Shown piece after piece: positions 3,531 to 11,372 of a DNA stretch of 42,712 nt (position 1 is its first letter; every line of letters begins with the position of its first letter). Under the pieces are notes generated by a model. It was not told the origin of the DNA. It made no database searches and worked only from the letters and a program-made list of their open reading frames with translations. The position numbers were made by a program, and so were the translations under genes. Source of the stretch: Deltaproteobacteria bacterium (GTDB lineage Bacteria; Desulfobacterota; DSM-4660; Desulfatiglandales; Desulfatiglandaceae); contig JAIPDI010000047.1 of the NCBI GenBank assembly GCA_021737785.1, forward strand, positions 1-42,712. Reading direction: 5' to 3'.

Positions 3531-3718
3531 CCGAGGCCCCTATGTTGCTGGTTGCTGGCTGCTCGTTACGGGATGTCGGCTCCTCAAGCTTTCAGCGTAT
3601 CGAAGCCTGCTGTTTCATTGGATGCTGATGCCGGACATTGGGTCTCTTCAGAAGTTTCTGTACAATCCGACCAGCGCTGAAAAGACGGTAGGGAAATTAT
3701 AAGGAGGGAAACACAATG

Positions 3719-4174
3719 CCCAAAATTGGAAGGCCTGCCATCTCCGTTTGTGCCCTGAAAAATGGCTTAAAACGGATCATTGTACTTGCCGGTTTGGCCC
3801 TCGGCCTGTCTGCCTGCGCCGCCATCCAGAACCAGAATGCCATGGACATGGAACGCCTCCTCGCCGCCTCAGGGTTCCAGATGCGTCTCGCCGACACGCC
3901 TGACAAGCTCGATCACTTGAAGACCCTGACCCAGCGAAGGCTCGTCCCCCACCAGCACGAGGGTAAGATCTATTATGTCTACGCAGACGCCGCAGCCTGT
4001 CAATGCATCTATGTGGGGAATGAAGGGGCCTATCAGCGCTATCAGAAGCTCGCCCTGCAAAAGGAGATGGCTGATGAACAGCGCATGGCAGCGGAAATGA
4101 ACGCGAATGCCTCCATGAACTGGGGTCTGTGGGGTCCATGGGGCCCATGGGGGCCGGCCGGCCCGTGGGAATAG
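3719..4174 (+). CDS. Putative lipoprotein with C-terminal WGP repeats
   Basis: This roughly 150-residue protein begins with a basic N-terminus and a hydrophobic stretch (IIVLAGLALGLSAC) ending in a lipobox LSAC, so it is predicted to be exported and lipid-anchored. The mature part has a GKIYYVYADAAACQCIYVGN segment with a closely spaced Cys pair, an amphipathic helix (QRYQKLALQKEMADEQRMAAE) and an unusual tail of WGPWGPWGPAGPWE. ATG 3716 (MPKIGR) has AAGGAGGG at 3701-3708 in good position; the precise start could be either 3716 or a few codons later. Short periplasmic lipoproteins ending in Trp/Gly/Pro tracts occur in this bacterial group, but no function is known to me. Confidence 0.75.
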   Translation, partial: PKIGRPAISVCALKNGLKRIIVLAGLALGLSACAAIQNQNAMDMERLLAASGFQMRLADTPDKLDHLKTLTQRRLVPHQHEGKIYYVYADAAACQCIYVGNEGAYQRYQKLALQKEMADEQRMAAEMNANASMNWGLWGPWGPWGPAGPWE

Positions 4175-4255: not shown

Positions 4256-5494
4256 TTAGAGGGCCGGCCCTCCAAGGGATCTACTCCTGCGCCTGATTTT
4301 TTCATTGGCGCTTTTGATGGTTGCGCTCAGTTTATCGATATCCACCGGTTTTTGAAGATATGCGAAGGCCCCCAGGCCCATGCAGGTTTCCTTGTCTGCC
4401 TCTGAGCCATGGCCCGTGAGGATGATCACCTCAATCTCGGGGTTCGTCTGCTTCACCCTTCTCAAGACCTCAATACCGTCGATCCCGGGCATCCTGAGGT
4501 CCAGGATGATCACCTCCGGCTCGTCCGTCTTGATTAATTCCAGGGCCGATTCCCCGTCATAGGCCACGGCCGAACCCATCTCCCGCATCACCAGGCGATC
4601 GGACAAGGTCTCTACGAACTCACGTTCATCATCCACGAGGAGGACCTTTGACGGTATCTCAAAATCATGTTTCCGGTATATATCCGCCTGATAGTACCCT
4701 TTCCCCACCTGGGTGGTCACCGCCTTCACCCCAGGGACCTGATCCGCGATCTTGATGAGTTCTTCTTCGAGCCGGCTTAACATGAGAACGTGCTTATTGA
4801 TCGTCAGGGTGATGTCCCCATCTTTCGCTTCCACGCCCACATTGTGTCCTTCATTGGCCAGGCTCACCTCCACATTGGCGGCCAGGAGAAAATCCTCCAT
4901 CGCCTTTCTTGATTGCGGGGTGTTTTTCATTACCTCTTTCTTCATGACCTCCCGGACACGGCCGACCATAGCATCCACATCCATCTTGTCCGTGGGCAGG
5001 AGCATGTCATAGAGCGCGGCATTCCAAGGGTCATTCTCCTCCAGCAGGGCATGGACCCAGGCGGCGGCGTCTTCGTCGTGTTTCCGGATAAGCCTCGTTG
5101 CATCATGTTCGCTCAGGCCGCGATCCTGAAGGGCCCTGTCTATCCTGAAGGGGATACCCGCAATAAGGCAGATTCGAAGCACATGACCCAGCTTTTGGGG
5201 GATCAGATGAGAGATGAATCCAACGATCACCAGGTCTTTATCCGAGAGCTTCTGCGCCAGGGCTAGCTTGAGATAGGCGATTGATCGCTCCCTCTCGTGA
5301 GTGAACTTATTGAATACCGAGGTCTTCCCCGAAAACGCCCTTCCTATTTTTTGTTGGGACAGGCCTGAAAGTCGGCTCGCTTCGAGAACAATATCCGTGT
5401 CCCTGACCAGATCATAACCTGTTTCGGAAACCAGTGCGGCGACCACAGGTTCTTCGCCGCAAAAGATGCCGCTGAATATGCTGATTGCTGTCAT
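4256..5494 (-). CDS. Cytidylate kinase-like / BON-like / response-regulator receiver fusion
   Basis: A 412-residue fusion. Residues 1-165 resemble the cytidylate kinase-like family (Cytidylate_kin2): LVIVGFISHLIPQKLGHVLRI followed by an FRIDRAL helix, then DEDAAAWVHALLEENDPWNAALYDMLLPTDK. However, the N-terminal SIFSGIFCGEEP has lost the Gly/Ser-rich P-loop, so catalysis is doubtful. Residues 195-265 have a BON-like pattern (NVEVSLANEGHNVGVEAKDG with LIKIADQVPGVKAVTTQV). Residues 282-400 are a receiver domain with Asp288/289, phosphoacceptor Asp332 (LDLRMPG), Thr360 and Lys382. There is no DNA-binding output. It is last in the minus-strand TetR-SulP operon, 200 bases beyond the transporter, so it may sense or control anion transport; that link is inferred from position. 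Confidence 0.8.
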   Translation of the reverse strand: MTAISIFSGIFCGEEPVVAALVSETGYDLVRDTDIVLEASRLSGLSQQKIGRAFSGKTSVFNKFTHERERSIAYLKLALAQKLSDKDLVIVGFISHLIPQKLGHVLRICLIAGIPFRIDRALQDRGLSEHDATRLIRKHDEDAAAWVHALLEENDPWNAALYDMLLPTDKMDVDAMVGRVREVMKKEVMKNTPQSRKAMEDFLLAANVEVSLANEGHNVGVEAKDGDITLTINKHVLMLSRLEEELIKIADQVPGVKAVTTQVGKGYYQADIYRKHDFEIPSKVLLVDDEREFVETLSDRLVMREMGSAVAYDGESALELIKTDEPEVIILDLRMPGIDGIEVLRRVKQTNPEIEVIILTGHGSEADKETCMGLGAFAYLQKPVDIDKLSATIKSANEKIRRRSRSLGGPAL

Positions 5495-5693
5495 TTCAAA
5501 CCCCTTTTCTTTTCATGGTATATAGAAGCGTTGTCATCATACCCCATTGTGCCCCCAACAGCCAGTCTCCCCGTTGCCCGATGTGGAACTCACCTCGTCT
5601 CGATTCAGAAGGTATGCTCCGAACCAGACAGGTTAGTTCCCTTAAGGCGGAAAGGTCGAGGATCCGGCGTTGCCTTAACTCCTTCGATCCGTC

Positions 5694-7829
5694 TTATGCA
5701 GGGCGGCATACCGGAAGAAGGGGACAGAGATCTTCCTCGCCCGGTGGATGCGTCTCCTTATGAACGGCCTCAATAGCCTTTTCCATGGTCGGGTACAGAT
5801 GGTCCTTCCCTATTTTTGCGGTAAAATAGGTGCGGTCCATGACACTCATGACCGACTCATTCACGCCGCTCATGGAGATATCCAGCCCCGCACTTCTGAC
5901 CCTGTCCACCAGTAAGGACAATGTCTCTTCCCCTGATGCATCCATATCGTTGATGCCGTTCGCCACGATGATAATATGTTTCAAGTCCTTTTTGTTGCGC
6001 ATAAATTCCGTAATTTTATCCTCAAGATAGCTGGCATTGGCAAAGAACAGGGGCCCGTCGAACCGGACCATGGAGATGTACGGACATTCCTTCAGCCCAT
6101 GTGTGGTCACGCAGCGAAGCGCCTCATCCTCGTGCCGCGACAGGGAGGCGACCTTGGGCCGCATGTTCTTGTAGAGGAACACCAGTATGGAGAGCACCAC
6201 ACCGATCTCGATCCCCTTGTCCAGATGGGGCGCAAACGCGAGGGTGGCCACAAAGGTAATAATGGAAATGGCGCCGTCATACCACTGGGCCTTCCAGGCG
6301 TGTACAAACCCGGATACATTGATGAGGCCGATGACCGCCATCATGATCACCGCAGCCAGGACCGACTGCGGGAGGTAGTAGAGGAGGGGCGTGAAAAAGA
6401 GGAGGACGATGACCACGGTAATGCTCGTAAATACGCTGGAAAGTCCTGAAACAGCGCCGGCCTGAAGATTGACCGCGGATCTCGAAAAAGAGCCGGATGT
6501 GGGATAACTCTTGCCGATGGCGCCGCAGATATTGGCCAGCCCCTGGCCGATGAGTTCCTGATTCGGGTCCAACCGCTGACCTGTCTTGGCGGCCATGGCC
6601 TTGGCAATGGAGATGGCTTCCATGAACCCTAAGAGGGATATGATGGCCGCATACGGGAAGAGATGCAGGAGGATACCGGAATTGACCTTTGGGATGCTGA
6701 AAGACGGCAATCCGCTGGGAATCTCGCCGACCACCGCGCCGCCGCCCATAAGGATCAACTGATCCTCATCCAGCGGCGTGTTCCCTACCTTGAGGCGCCA
6801 GACACGGCCATCATGCTCGGCCCCGGCCGGGAGACGGCCCTCCGGATAAAATTTCAGAGACCCGCCCGGTTCCTGAACGCCCCTCAATATCAGACGTCTG
6901 ATCTGCTCACGGTAGACATGGGCATCTTCCTTGAGGCGTTCCATATGAAACGTAAGGGTGGTTACAGCGTGTTCGGCGTCCAGGACCTGCTGAATATCAT
7001 GGGCCTTCTTGGATGCTTCAATGGCTTTATTCGCCGCTGCCCGTTCCTCCGCAAGTTCAGGCAGTTTCAAGGTCACCCTGTTGAACTCGCCGATCAACTC
7101 CCTTACCTCGGGGGATACGATGCGATCAATGGGAACGGAGATATTGTGCTGATATCCGGTGGCCCAGGAAATCACGGTCGTGACGGCCACTGCGACCAGC
7201 ACATTGGGAATCTTGGGTGAAATCCATTTCAGCCCGTACATGATGGCGAATGCAAAAGCCCCCATCAAAAACGTCGGCCAATGGGTGTACTGAAAGGCGG
7301 CCTCGATAACCCGCATAATGGTCTCATAATGGTGTTCAGCCTTGTCCACATAGACGCCGAACATCTTGGAAAGCTGGGAGGAGGCGATGATGATGGCTGC
7401 CGCATTGGTAAAGCCGTTTACCACCGGATGCGATAGAAAATTGACCACGAGACCCAGCCTCAAGAGACCCAGAGTGAACTGGAATACGCCCACCATGAGG
7501 GCAAGCACAATGGCGTAGGCGATATAGCCCTCGCTGCCTGCAGTGGCCAGCGGTTCAAGGGAAGCAGCGGTCATCAGGGAAACGACCGCCACAGGACCGG
7601 TGGCCAGCTGTCGGCTGGAGCCGAACAGGGATGCGATCATGGGAGGGAGGAATGCGGCATAGAGCCCGAAATAGGCAGGAAGACCGGCCAATTGTGCATA
7701 GGCCATGGACTGGGGAATGAGAACCAGCGCCACCGTGAGACCGGAGATGGCGTCGATTCTGAAACTGCTCATGTTGTAATCCTTGAACCATGAAATAAAC
7801 GGGAAAATTTTAGTCAGCATTCTCATCAC
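5694..7829 (-). CDS. SulP family anion transporter with large soluble insertion and STAS domain
   Basis: This 711-residue inner-membrane protein belongs to the SulP (SLC26) family of sulfate/bicarbonate-type anion transporters. The signature appears early (ALVLIPQSMAYAQLAGLPAY, residues 34-53), followed by TGPVAVVSLMTAAS and many hydrophobic segments, with SYPTSGSFSRSAVN around residues 441-454. The C-terminal STAS domain runs from about 572 to 695 (NGINDMDASGEETL). It is longer than usual because of about 130 polar, charged residues at 236-366 between two membrane segments, partly helical (AEERAAANKAIEASKKAHD) and partly strand-rich. The substrate cannot be told from the sequence. Its start overlaps the end of the TetR gene by 11-20 bases (several in-frame ATGs: 7829, 7826, 7820), which indicates translational coupling. 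Confidence 0.92.
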   Translation of the reverse strand: MMRMLTKIFPFISWFKDYNMSSFRIDAISGLTVALVLIPQSMAYAQLAGLPAYFGLYAAFLPPMIASLFGSSRQLATGPVAVVSLMTAASLEPLATAGSEGYIAYAIVLALMVGVFQFTLGLLRLGLVVNFLSHPVVNGFTNAAAIIIASSQLSKMFGVYVDKAEHHYETIMRVIEAAFQYTHWPTFLMGAFAFAIMYGLKWISPKIPNVLVAVAVTTVISWATGYQHNISVPIDRIVSPEVRELIGEFNRVTLKLPELAEERAAANKAIEASKKAHDIQQVLDAEHAVTTLTFHMERLKEDAHVYREQIRRLILRGVQEPGGSLKFYPEGRLPAGAEHDGRVWRLKVGNTPLDEDQLILMGGGAVVGEIPSGLPSFSIPKVNSGILLHLFPYAAIISLLGFMEAISIAKAMAAKTGQRLDPNQELIGQGLANICGAIGKSYPTSGSFSRSAVNLQAGAVSGLSSVFTSITVVIVLLFFTPLLYYLPQSVLAAVIMMAVIGLINVSGFVHAWKAQWYDGAISIITFVATLAFAPHLDKGIEIGVVLSILVFLYKNMRPKVASLSRHEDEALRCVTTHGLKECPYISMVRFDGPLFFANASYLEDKITEFMRNKKDLKHIIIVANGINDMDASGEETLSLLVDRVRSAGLDISMSGVNESVMSVMDRTYFTAKIGKDHLYPTMEKAIEAVHKETHPPGEEDLCPLLPVCRPA

Positions 7830-8424
7830 CTGTTGTTGAAATTCCTTGATTTCCCACCATTCTTCGGCAGACTGCGATCAACTCCTGGTAAAGCGAGCCT
7901 GCATCGTAGAGTTCATAGGTGCTGAACCTTGCCAGACCATCCACCATGGAAAAGATGATCAATGCGGCCTTCCTGGGAGGCATGACTGCCATGGATCCAT
8001 CTTCCATTCCCTTGCAAATGGCCGTTTCAAAAATGTTTACAAAGCCGTTGTACACGGCCTCCAGATGCCCTTTGCAGGCGGCGTTGTCCCTCGCAAGTTC
8101 ATAGGCATCATGCCGATGCAAGAGGAGGAAACGCTCTTCCATGGTCTCTGCCAGGGACAGATAACAGGAAATGCATCCTTCCAGCATTTCCATCCCGTTT
8201 TGAAAGTTCATCTTGCCCAGATAACGGTCAAACTCCGTGATGACATCTTTCCGGAACTGCTCAAGAACCGCCAGGAAGAGGTCTTCCTTGTTCTTGAAAT
8301 GGTAAAAAATCGTCCCCTCCGCCGCCCCCGTGATCCGGGAGATTTCCGACATGCGGGTATTCTCGAATCCTCTCTTGGAAAAGAGGAGGGTGGCGGCACG
8401 AATAATGGCATCTTTTTTAGACAT
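7810..8424 (-). CDS. TetR/AcrR family transcriptional regulator
   Basis: This 204-residue regulator has a classic TetR N-terminal helix-turn-helix: IIRAATLLFSKRGFENTRM, then ISRITGAAEGTIFYHFKNKEDLF (residues 7-50). The C-terminal ligand-binding half is divergent and includes a Cys-containing helix (CISCYLSLAET). It is the first gene of the minus-strand operon with the SulP transporter and the receiver fusion. A 7-2-7 inverted repeat 27 bases upstream of its start is a likely operator, so it probably represses itself and the transporter. The ligand is unknown. Confidence 0.92.
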   Translation of the reverse strand: MSKKDAIIRAATLLFSKRGFENTRMSEISRITGAAEGTIFYHFKNKEDLFLAVLEQFRKDVITEFDRYLGKMNFQNGMEMLEGCISCYLSLAETMEERFLLLHRHDAYELARDNAACKGHLEAVYNGFVNIFETAICKGMEDGSMAVMPPRKAALIIFSMVDGLARFSTYELYDAGSLYQELIAVCRRMVGNQGISTTGDENAD

Positions 8425-8451
8425 AAGATATCAACTGATCAAAAATAAACC

Positions 8452-8467
8452 GACTGAGCACTCAGTC
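8452..8467. promoter_or_regulatory. TetR-type operator (inverted repeat)
   Basis: GACTGAG-CA-CTCAGTC is a perfect 7-bp inverted repeat with a 2-bp spacer, placed 28-43 bases upstream of the TetR start codon. Its form (ACTGAG..CTCAGT) is like many TetR/AcrR operators. It also lies in the divergent region shared with the hybrid kinase gene at 8811, but about 345 bases from that start. Confidence 0.75.
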
Positions 8468-8810
8468 TAAAGGTCTTTAATGAATTCCGGCTTCTGCGTC
8501 AAGAAAAAAACATGCCTTGAAGGAAAAAATTTCTGTATGCTTTAGAACAGTGCCGCCCCCGAACGTGAACTAAGGTCGCACAATCTCCGTCCTCCCATCT
8601 CTCTTTGGCTTGAATGAGGCAGGATTCTTGCATGGTCAATCCAATGATGATATCGACAACTAAGGTTTTGACACTGCCGGTCCGATATGATAGCAGTCAT
8701 AGCCCCAGTCTACTCCTCATTAATTCATATAGCGGAACATGCCGTTTGACATCCTTCGGCAACCTTCAAGGATTTGCCACCTGTAGTGACACCAACCAAC
8801 AGGGAATGAG
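8468..8810. other. Intergenic region between divergent TetR and hybrid kinase genes
   Basis: About 340 bases with no supported reading frame. It should hold the promoter of the kinase gene; A+T-rich tracts occur at 8490-8545 and 8690-8725, but I could not fix -35/-10 boxes. AGGGA at 8801-8805 is a weak ribosome-binding site for ATG 8811. Confidence 0.35.
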
Positions 8811-11372
8811 ATGATTTCAGAATATAATGAAGACCATATTGAAAAAATTATAAACGCCCTTTCGCAGGCGGCAAAAGGGGAGTATTCGGCCAGGATCGAC
8901 TTTGCATCAGAGGACAGCACGCTCGGGTCCGTGGCAAAGGCTGTAAATACATTGCTTGAAAAGACCGACGAAAAACTCTCCTCAATATCCCGATTGGTCG
9001 AGGATCTCTCAGCGAACGCCAGGCGTTACCAGGTGATTGCCGAAAGAATGATCGATGTGGCGTGGATGACAGACATGGATCTGCGGACCGTCTATGTCAG
9101 CCCGTCCATCCATACGGTGCTTGGATTCAGCCAGGAAGAACGGATGGTTCAAACCATCGATGAACAACTGACCCCTGATTCATTATCCATCGGGTTGGAT
9201 GCCCTGGCAAGGGAGCTTGCCCTTGAAAAGGAGGGGGCGGATCCGCAGAGGAGTGCGACCCTGGTACTTGAATATTATCATAAGGACGGCTCGACCCGTT
9301 TTATGGAGACAGTGATGGGCGGGATTCGAGATGAGCAGGGCCTTTTGACCGGAATATGTGGTGTATCCCGGGACATTACCGACCGCAAGAGGGTCGAAGA
9401 GAAGCTCAGAAAAAGCGAAGAACGATACCGAATGATCGTCGAAAACATGAATGAGATCATCTGGATCATCGGCCTGGACCTGCAGTTTACCTATGTCAGT
9501 CCGTCGAGTACGTGGGTGACGGGCTATACACCCGAAGAAGCGAGCAACACCCCCCTGGATCAATTGCTCACCCCCGAATCTTTTGCCATGGCAACCCGGA
9601 GGCTAGCGGATGAGCTGGCGCTGGAGGAAAGCGCCGCGGCTCCCGTCCCCCACAGGGCGATCACCCTGGAGATCGAGGCCATTCATAAAGAAGGAAGACC
9701 CCTCTGGCTTGAGATCACGGGCACGTTTAACCGCGACACGGATGGGAAAATCACGGAAATTCTGGTCGTCGGCAGAAACATCTCGGAACGCAAAAGGGTG
9801 GAGACAGAACTCCAGGAGAGTGAAAAACGCTATCGGATGATCGTGGAAAACATGCATGAAATTATTTGGGTGATGGATCTGAATCTTAAATACAAATATC
9901 GCAGTCCCTCCAATATTCGAATAACCGGTTACAGCCCTGAAGAGATCACCAGCATTCCGGCAAAGGATCAGATTGTTCCCGAATCCTACGCCCTGGTGCA
10001 AACAGTACTGGCGGAGGAGCTGGAAAAGGAGTTTGGGCAGGAACCTGTCGACCCCCACCGATCGAGAACGATTGAAGTGGAGGTCTATCACAAAGACGGC
10101 GGAACGGTCTGGATTGAGGTAACAGGCCTGTTTATTCGCGATGACAGCGGGAAACCCGTTGAAATCCTGCTCAGTGCCAGAGAGATTACGGAGCGCAAGA
10201 GGGCGGAGGAAGAAAAGGCCAAACTCGAAAGTCAACTGATTCAAGTACAGAAGATGGAGACCGTAGGCCGCCTGGCCGGAGGCGTTGCTCACGATTTCAA
10301 CAATATGCTCGGCGTTATTCTGGGGTATGCGGACCTGGCCAAGCGGAGCCTGGCCAAAGCGCATCCCGTCTTGAGGAATCTCGTTCAAATTGAGAAAGCC
10401 GCTACCCGCTCCCGGGACATCACAGCGCAACTGCTGGCTTTCTCCCGCAAACAGATCATCAATCCCCGTGTCATCGATCTTAATGAGCTGGTGGCCCATA
10501 CTCAAAAATTGCTGATCCGTCTCATCGGTGAGCATATTGAATTGAGTGTTCTTCCCGGGGAAGATCTCTGGACAATCAAATTCGATCCTTCCCAGATTGA
10601 ACAAATTCTCATCAATCTGGCGGTGAATTCGCGCGATGCAATGCCCGGCGGCGGCAAACTGGTGATCGAAACCAAAAACATCATCCTGGAGGACTCCTAT
10701 TGCAAAACGCACATCGGCTGCACACCCGGCCCCCATGTCCGATTATCCGTCAGCGACAACGGAGAGGGGATGGATAAAGAAATGCTGCAGCATATCTTTG
10801 AACCCTTTTTCACGACCAAAGAGGTGGGTCAAGGCACCGGTCTGGGGCTGGCCACGGTTTACGGTATTATCAAACAAAATAATTGCTCTATTAATGTCTA
10901 CAGCGAACCGGGATATGGAACCACCTTTAACATCTATGTGCCGCGTGCCTCAGGGGAAAGAGAAGTCCGGGAGGTGTCCGAAGAAGACCCGACGGTTACC
11001 AATGCAGGAAAAATTCTCCTGGTGGAGGACGATCCCATGCTTCTCGACATCACTCAGGAAATGCTTGAATCTATCGGATATACCGTGATCGTTGCCGGAG
11101 CCCCCCGTGAGGCCATATCGCTTTTCGAGCAGCACGATACATCTATTGATCTCGTCATTACCGATGTGATAATGCCGTTCATGAGCGGAAAAGAATTAAT
11201 AGATAAACTTAAAGAAATACGTCCGGACATTAAGGTGCTCTTCATGTCCGGGTATACGGCTGACGCCATCGCCCATCATGGTGTGTTGGAGAAAGACATG
11301 CATTTTTTGCAGAAACCCTTCAGGGTACGAGATCTGGCTCGCAAAGTGGGTGAAATTATGGCGGCGGATTAG
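8811..11372 (+). CDS. Hybrid sensor histidine kinase with three PAS domains and a receiver
   Basis: An 853-residue soluble hybrid kinase without membrane segments. Residues 8-60 look HAMP-like. Three tandem PAS/PAC repeats follow (about 71-190, 202-328 and 336-462); each opens with a version of YRMIVENM and closes with a version of ITERKR, so they arose by duplication. A coiled linker leads to the dimerisation domain with phosphoacceptor His494 (AGGVAHDFNNML). The ATPase domain shows N-box NLAVNSRDAM (about 602-611), DNGEGM (649-654), FEPFFTTK and TGLGLATVYGI. The C-terminal receiver (734-852) has Asp740/741, phosphoacceptor Asp785 (VITDVIMP) and Lys835. It is a single-gene unit with no output partner adjacent, so its target is unknown. 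Confidence 0.93.
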   Translation: MISEYNEDHIEKIINALSQAAKGEYSARIDFASEDSTLGSVAKAVNTLLEKTDEKLSSISRLVEDLSANARRYQVIAERMIDVAWMTDMDLRTVYVSPSIHTVLGFSQEERMVQTIDEQLTPDSLSIGLDALARELALEKEGADPQRSATLVLEYYHKDGSTRFMETVMGGIRDEQGLLTGICGVSRDITDRKRVEEKLRKSEERYRMIVENMNEIIWIIGLDLQFTYVSPSSTWVTGYTPEEASNTPLDQLLTPESFAMATRRLADELALEESAAAPVPHRAITLEIEAIHKEGRPLWLEITGTFNRDTDGKITEILVVGRNISERKRVETELQESEKRYRMIVENMHEIIWVMDLNLKYKYRSPSNIRITGYSPEEITSIPAKDQIVPESYALVQTVLAEELEKEFGQEPVDPHRSRTIEVEVYHKDGGTVWIEVTGLFIRDDSGKPVEILLSAREITERKRAEEEKAKLESQLIQVQKMETVGRLAGGVAHDFNNMLGVILGYADLAKRSLAKAHPVLRNLVQIEKAATRSRDITAQLLAFSRKQIINPRVIDLNELVAHTQKLLIRLIGEHIELSVLPGEDLWTIKFDPSQIEQILINLAVNSRDAMPGGGKLVIETKNIILEDSYCKTHIGCTPGPHVRLSVSDNGEGMDKEMLQHIFEPFFTTKEVGQGTGLGLATVYGIIKQNNCSINVYSEPGYGTTFNIYVPRASGEREVREVSEEDPTVTNAGKILLVEDDPMLLDITQEMLESIGYTVIVAGAPREAISLFEQHDTSIDLVITDVIMPFMSGKELIDKLKEIRPDIKVLFMSGYTADAIAHHGVLEKDMHFLQKPFRVRDLARKVGEIMAAD

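Follow-up and report, generated by a model that had tools for sequence, protein, structure and literature searches.

Dissimilatory sulfate reduction begins with the import of sulfate, and what is known of how this step is controlled comes mainly from models based on genomes. The closest described system is the sulP cluster of Desulfobacteraceae, in which two-component genes accompany a TetR repressor with a 16-bp palindrome (Sci Adv 2025, PMC11887813); the model in that paper combines a sensor kinase with response regulators of ‘WalR type’ and draws arrows to promoters, which the regulators are taken to bind. A 2018 study described longer SulP proteins with an insertion, and its main text makes no mention of the fusion described here (PMC5840216). 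SLC26 proteins have 14 helices and a cytosolic STAS domain, and in AtSULTR4;1 the residues Q112, Y116, E347, S392 and R393 are sulfate-site and proton-coupling residues (PMC8298490).

The window, by which we mean the whole 42,712-nucleotide stretch analysed, on contig 47 of a genome of 5.33 Mb in 96 contigs, resembles the Desulfobacteraceae cluster in having a SulP permease and a TetR repressor with a 16-bp palindrome. That cluster also has two-component genes and a Cache-domain histidine kinase; the window carries a kinase-like/BON/receiver fusion with no adjoining kinase chain. Because no Cache-domain histidine kinase adjoins the operon, the window is a reduced version of the published cluster rather than a full member. 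The window SulP is also similar to group Ci of SulP clade C (PMC5840216), a likeness drawn from length (about 710 amino acids), insertion and motif rather than from a tree: the first proline of its PXYGLY motif is replaced by alanine, as is common in that group. The group Ci insertion is described as about 90 amino acids with an extra transmembrane (TM) helix, whereas residues 228–363 of the window SulP are modelled as a soluble hairpin followed by strands. With AtSULTR4;1 and SLC26 (PMC8298490; PDB 7lhv) it shares the sulfate-site and proton-coupling residues and a C-terminal STAS domain; those proteins, unlike the window SulP, have neither an insertion nor a linked receiver.

A sequence-only reading of this DNA was aware of no described system with this composition. 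Such systems are described, as the cluster with TetR and palindrome appears in PMC11887813 and the insertion in PMC5840216; the cluster itself is thus already known. What appears to be new is the joining of kinase-like, BON and receiver parts, the loss of the P-loop in this architecture, and the lack of DNA-binding domains in typical receivers of the cluster: the main text of PMC11887813 does not name the fusion, and no paper on a kinase-like/receiver fusion was found in the open-access literature. With no DNA-binding domain in the receivers typical of the cluster, the promoter binding that the published model assumes would lack a visible carrier. The domain content instead predicts control by protein contact, a testable departure from that model for a cluster that is widespread in the phylum; the novelty lies in this output architecture and in the conflict with the published model.

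The operon and its presumed operator

The host is very likely a sulfate reducer, because its genome encodes DsrA (match of 572.9 bits). A scan of GTDB genomes with the N-terminal part of the fusion gave 288 relatives; the counts below that refer to the best 80 of these describe close relatives, and the named ones among them are mostly Desulfobacterales. Open reading frames and profile matches place TetR, SulP and the fusion where the sequence-only reading had put them, all on the minus strand (Table 1), with 20 bases common to the TetR and SulP frames.

Table 1 Features of the TetR–SulP–fusion operon, in window coordinates
Feature	Position	Strand	Evidence
Cytidylate_kin2/BON-like/receiver fusion, 412 aa	4256..5494	-	Profiles and structure model
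P-loop-less cytidylate-kinase-like domain, residues 4–169	4988..5485	-	PF13189, E 8e-18, 65.7 bits vs cut-off 28
BON-like domain, residues 193–263	4706..4918	-	Helix-strand-strand-helix-strand model
Receiver domain, residues 284–393	4316..4645	-	PF00072, E 1e-28
SulP/SLC26 permease, 711 aa, likely H+/sulfate symporter	5694..7829	-	PF00916, E 6e-106; TIGR00815 above cut-off
SulP insertion, residues 228–363, TM7–TM8 linker	6741..7148	-	AlphaFold2 model
SulP C-terminal STAS, residues 584–685	5775..6080	-	PF01740, E 7e-15
TetR-family repressor, 204 aa	7810..8424	-	PF00440, E 4e-15
16-bp palindrome GACTGAGCACTCAGTC, presumed TetR operator	8452..8467	.	14-bp core once in genome; conserved in relatives
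-35-like TTGACG ahead of operator, putative promoter element	8497..8502	-	Read from sequence

That the three genes form one TetR-controlled unit is supported by their conserved linkage and by the palindrome. Of the 67 named loci that leave room for it (best 80 of 288), 58 have a TetR orthologue ahead of SulP. The 14-bp core of the palindrome, ACTGAGNNCTCAGT, occurs a single time in the 5.33-Mb genome. Among 59 related TetR genes, 44 have the core with at most one mismatch, where shuffled sequence would give about 0.5; a TTGAC-type element is similarly placed ahead of most related TetR genes. The repressor, with its PF00440 domain and palindromic presumed operator, would repress its own operon.

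Divergent from TetR, at window positions 8811–11372, lies a receiver-bearing hybrid histidine kinase with three PAS domains, which is outside the families that recur at the same place in relatives. Downstream of the fusion, on the opposite strand, positions 3716–4174 encode a small predicted lipoprotein with a Trp/Gly/Pro-rich tail, in the spot where relatives have a kinase chain.

The fusion protein and the permease

Full-length orthologues of the fusion in relatives are 46–76% identical to it, and the structure model of the whole protein has a mean pLDDT of 85.8. The description of its first domain as P-loop-less holds: the fusion reads SGIFCGEE where stand-alone sister proteins have GSYSKGKE, and none of the aligned fusion orthologues has Gly-Lys at this position. 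Lacking the P-loop Gly-Lys of an active cytidylate kinase, the kinase-like body probably cannot catalyse. The stand-alone proteins, found in the same bacteria, have the same two N-terminal domains at about 25–30% identity; unlike the fusion, none carries a receiver, and one subgroup keeps a GxxxxGK-like loop (GSYSKGKE or similar) that the fusion does not. Tandem pairs of stand-alone Cytidylate_kin2/BON-like genes followed by a receiver occur at L062 (9242–11473) and also at L044, L053, L071 and L072, arrays in which the parts of the fusion are separate adjoining genes.

The assignment of a BON-like domain is weakly supported. The order of elements in the model of residues 193–263 agrees with it, and pLDDT in this region is mostly over 80, but PF04972 stays below its cut-off in all members, with 8 of 19 at E ≤ 1 and a best value of 0.0077. 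A fold search with the whole fusion returned only receivers, the result list being filled by the receiver domain. In that domain D288/D289, D332, T360 and K382, the residues of a response regulator, are invariant in 19 orthologues. Since all receiver phosphorylation residues are kept, the fusion appears to be a phosphorylatable receiver on a kinase-like body, and the claim that it has no output domain is borne out; no DNA-binding domain is present.

It is quite improbable that the fusion has no effector role and serves just to buffer the flow along the chain, as a phosphate sink or relay intermediate. The presence of several output-less receivers and a HisKA-only protein within one operon in relatives speaks for such a sink, but conservation of the kinase-like/BON part extends over many families of the phylum, and in the 19 orthologues this part has its own invariant residues, including C12, S59, F64, R70, W146 and W157, for which a mere sink would have no use. 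A search of viral contigs for the kinase-like part found no relative.

The permease scores 354.9 bits with PF00916 and 443.1 bits with TIGR00815, both above cut-off, and a fold search with it returned SLC26/STAS chains; its STAS domain matches that of prestin with Z 15.9 and an rmsd of 2.2 over 132 aligned residues. Hydropathy and model helices fit 7+7 TM helices, but model confidence is low in the membrane part, and the topology used here is taken from alignment with SLC26 structures. Residues Q40, Y44, E404, S449 and R450 are invariant in 15 orthologues and align, in this order, to the five AtSULTR4;1 residues named above, which makes an H+-coupled sulfate transporter the likely function.

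The soluble insertion of about 130 residues is real: the PF00916 match is split in two around residues 228–363, which AlphaFold2 models as a strand, a helical hairpin (240–311) and four strands, with block-mean pLDDT of about 71–90. It is the least conserved part of SulP, with 7% of positions invariant against 54% in the TM regions. In the SLC26 topology, the linker after the first seven helices lies on the side opposite the cytosolic STAS domain. By analogy the insertion is probably outside the cytoplasm, and because the TM7–TM8 linker is extracytoplasmic and the fusion has no membrane segment, it would be beyond the reach of the fusion. The suggestion that the fusion binds the insertion is thus unlikely and, given this topology and the low conservation of the insertion, was rejected; a contact with the STAS domain, suggested alongside it, is possible. 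The extra TM helix proposed for group Ci was also discarded here: the sole hydrophobic stretch at the end of the insertion, residues 357–375, overlaps the conserved VVGxIPxGLP linker, which also aligns in other SLC26 proteins.

The signalling cluster in relatives

The three-gene unit of the sequence-only reading exists but is a reduced piece, since most relatives add a kinase chain. In most of the 80 named loci (the best 80 of 288 relatives) the order is TetR, SulP, fusion, histidine kinase, REC1, HisKA-only protein, REC2, and a histidine kinase lies downstream of the fusion in 65 of 71 such loci with room. The kinases carry dCache, HisKA and HATPase_c domains. The HisKA-only protein gave no ATPase hit and is labelled phosphotransferase-like from its domain content. 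Median lengths are 123 (REC1), 221 (HisKA-only) and 142 (REC2) amino acids, and phosphorylation residues are conserved. At L041 the receiver is the only domain above cut-off in both REC1 and REC2; some mechanically called REC1 and REC2 frames exceed the size of a receiver, reaching 243 and 669 amino acids, respectively. In an all-against-all comparison of the best 80 of 288, no other gene family occurs in more than 11 loci. At L144, L145 and L159 the kinase, receiver and HisKA-only genes adjoin the SulP–fusion pair on the opposite strand.

That the receivers control transcription, as drawn in PMC11887813, with a kinase that senses sulfate, an activated response regulator on the promoters, the fusion as a relay or anti-factor and TetR as a second layer, seems to us improbable. 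It would agree with what that model draws (sensor kinase, response regulators of ‘WalR type’, arrows at promoters), and with a conserved TetR palindrome whose core is unique in the genome. Typical REC1 and REC2, however, are receiver-only at their median lengths, the fusion has no DNA-binding domain, and in the all-against-all comparison TetR is the one DNA-binding regulator that recurs in the cluster.

The window fusion is adjoined by none of kinase, REC1, HisKA-only protein and REC2. Outside this operon, the host genome has its best kinase match in a DASS cluster on contig 31; it is 43–44% identical and is no orthologue. Loss of the chain in the window lineage is more likely than its original absence, because one congener (G002) keeps all four genes; in another (G001), unrelated genes follow the fusion. 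There is a slim chance that the window operon is decaying or rewired, with the fusion surviving by chance as an orphan once the chain was lost, as the absence of these four genes in the host and one congener would allow, together with a SulP–fusion gap of 199 bases against about 15–30 in many relatives. Yet the three reading frames are open and about 70–82% identical to their nearest relatives, with every key residue intact.

Transporter linkage and a possible mechanism

The sequence-only reading had proposed searching for co-occurrence of Cytidylate_kin2–receiver fusions with SulP genes, and among close relatives this is found: of 78 named loci where the sequence reaches far enough, 75 have SulP immediately upstream of the fusion (the exceptions are L114, L143 and L149). 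More distant relatives differ. Among 395 genomes drawn from the phylum, 49 have strong matches with a fusion-length reading frame, and from these 20 more divergent loci were taken. SulP is directly upstream in 11 of the 20, and one is cut by a contig end. In four (L194, L196, L197 and L198) the fusion adjoins a DASS transporter, without SulP. Another, L187, has the order TetR, fusion, histidine kinase, REC1, HisKA-only protein, REC2, TSUP, with CBS and DASS genes further on and again without SulP. At L195 the fusion lies inside a two-component cluster with a distant DASS-like gene, and near the fusions of L186 and L199 no transporter was recognisable. In a quick tree, in which several forks are open and L195 sits on a long branch, the four DASS loci and L199 form one supported group, and one change between SulP and DASS is needed.

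The idea that the fusion acts by binding SulP thus keeps the support of tight linkage in close relatives, but contact with SulP cannot be its only role, because some distant fusions adjoin DASS (four loci) or TSUP (one locus) without SulP. This suggests that the common factor of the fusion loci is sulfate uptake, the presumed role of the linked DASS and TSUP proteins from their families, rather than one transporter fold. Distances among the operon genes correlate for all pairs; as no pair is singled out and only joint inheritance is visible, the correlation was set aside as evidence of contact.

We propose that the phosphorylated fusion controls sulfate uptake by protein contact, the likeliest reading, to which we give an even chance. 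The operon would serve sulfate uptake in a sulfate reducer and carry a signalling output of its own. In relatives, the dCache kinase would sense an outside ligand, probably sulfate, and phosphate would flow from the kinase to REC1, to the HisKA-only protein and on to REC2 and the fusion. Phosphorylation may then alter what the dead-kinase/BON-like body binds and so tune sulfate uptake. The fusion may touch the SulP/STAS face on the cytoplasmic side, or a component common to sulfate uptake, and its contact would not be SulP alone, because the transporter family switches among fusion loci. As the local kinase chain is missing in the window, its receiver would be served by another kinase, perhaps the paralogue in the DASS cluster of contig 31, or be silent.

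Alternatively, the kinase-like/BON body could sense a ligand or nucleotide that reports the energy or APS state of the cell, with the receiver as the partner under regulation, and so resemble the CBS protein in DASS clusters. We regard this as unlikely. The PF13189 fold is related by sequence profile to nucleotide kinases (PDB 3hdt and 3fdi) and CBS proteins are present in sister DASS clusters, but the P-loop residues are lost in the fusion. Several distant DASS loci, moreover, have both the fusion and a CBS protein, and the fusion as a replacement for CBS was rejected on this ground. Returning to control by protein contact, a stronger form, which we put forward tentatively and hold to be rather doubtful, is that the fusion represents a new output class of response regulators: a dead nucleotide kinase that, once phosphorylated, would gate sulfate import directly, following up to three unrelated transporter families (SulP, DASS and TSUP) and giving fast post-translational control of the first respiratory step.

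The host genome also holds a paralogous dCache kinase/DASS cluster on contig 31 (L087, 10512–17675, about 28.5–35.7 kb of contig C31), with a dCache kinase, a receiver, a HisKA-only protein, several receivers, a CBS protein and a DASS transporter; one of its receivers is 58% identical to that of the fusion and has no kinase-like part. Another transporter cluster in this style, the third in the genome, is on contig C1 (L088, 8498–13069); it has a kinase, three proteins that are receivers only, a TSUP-type transporter and, after these, a distant DASS-like gene.
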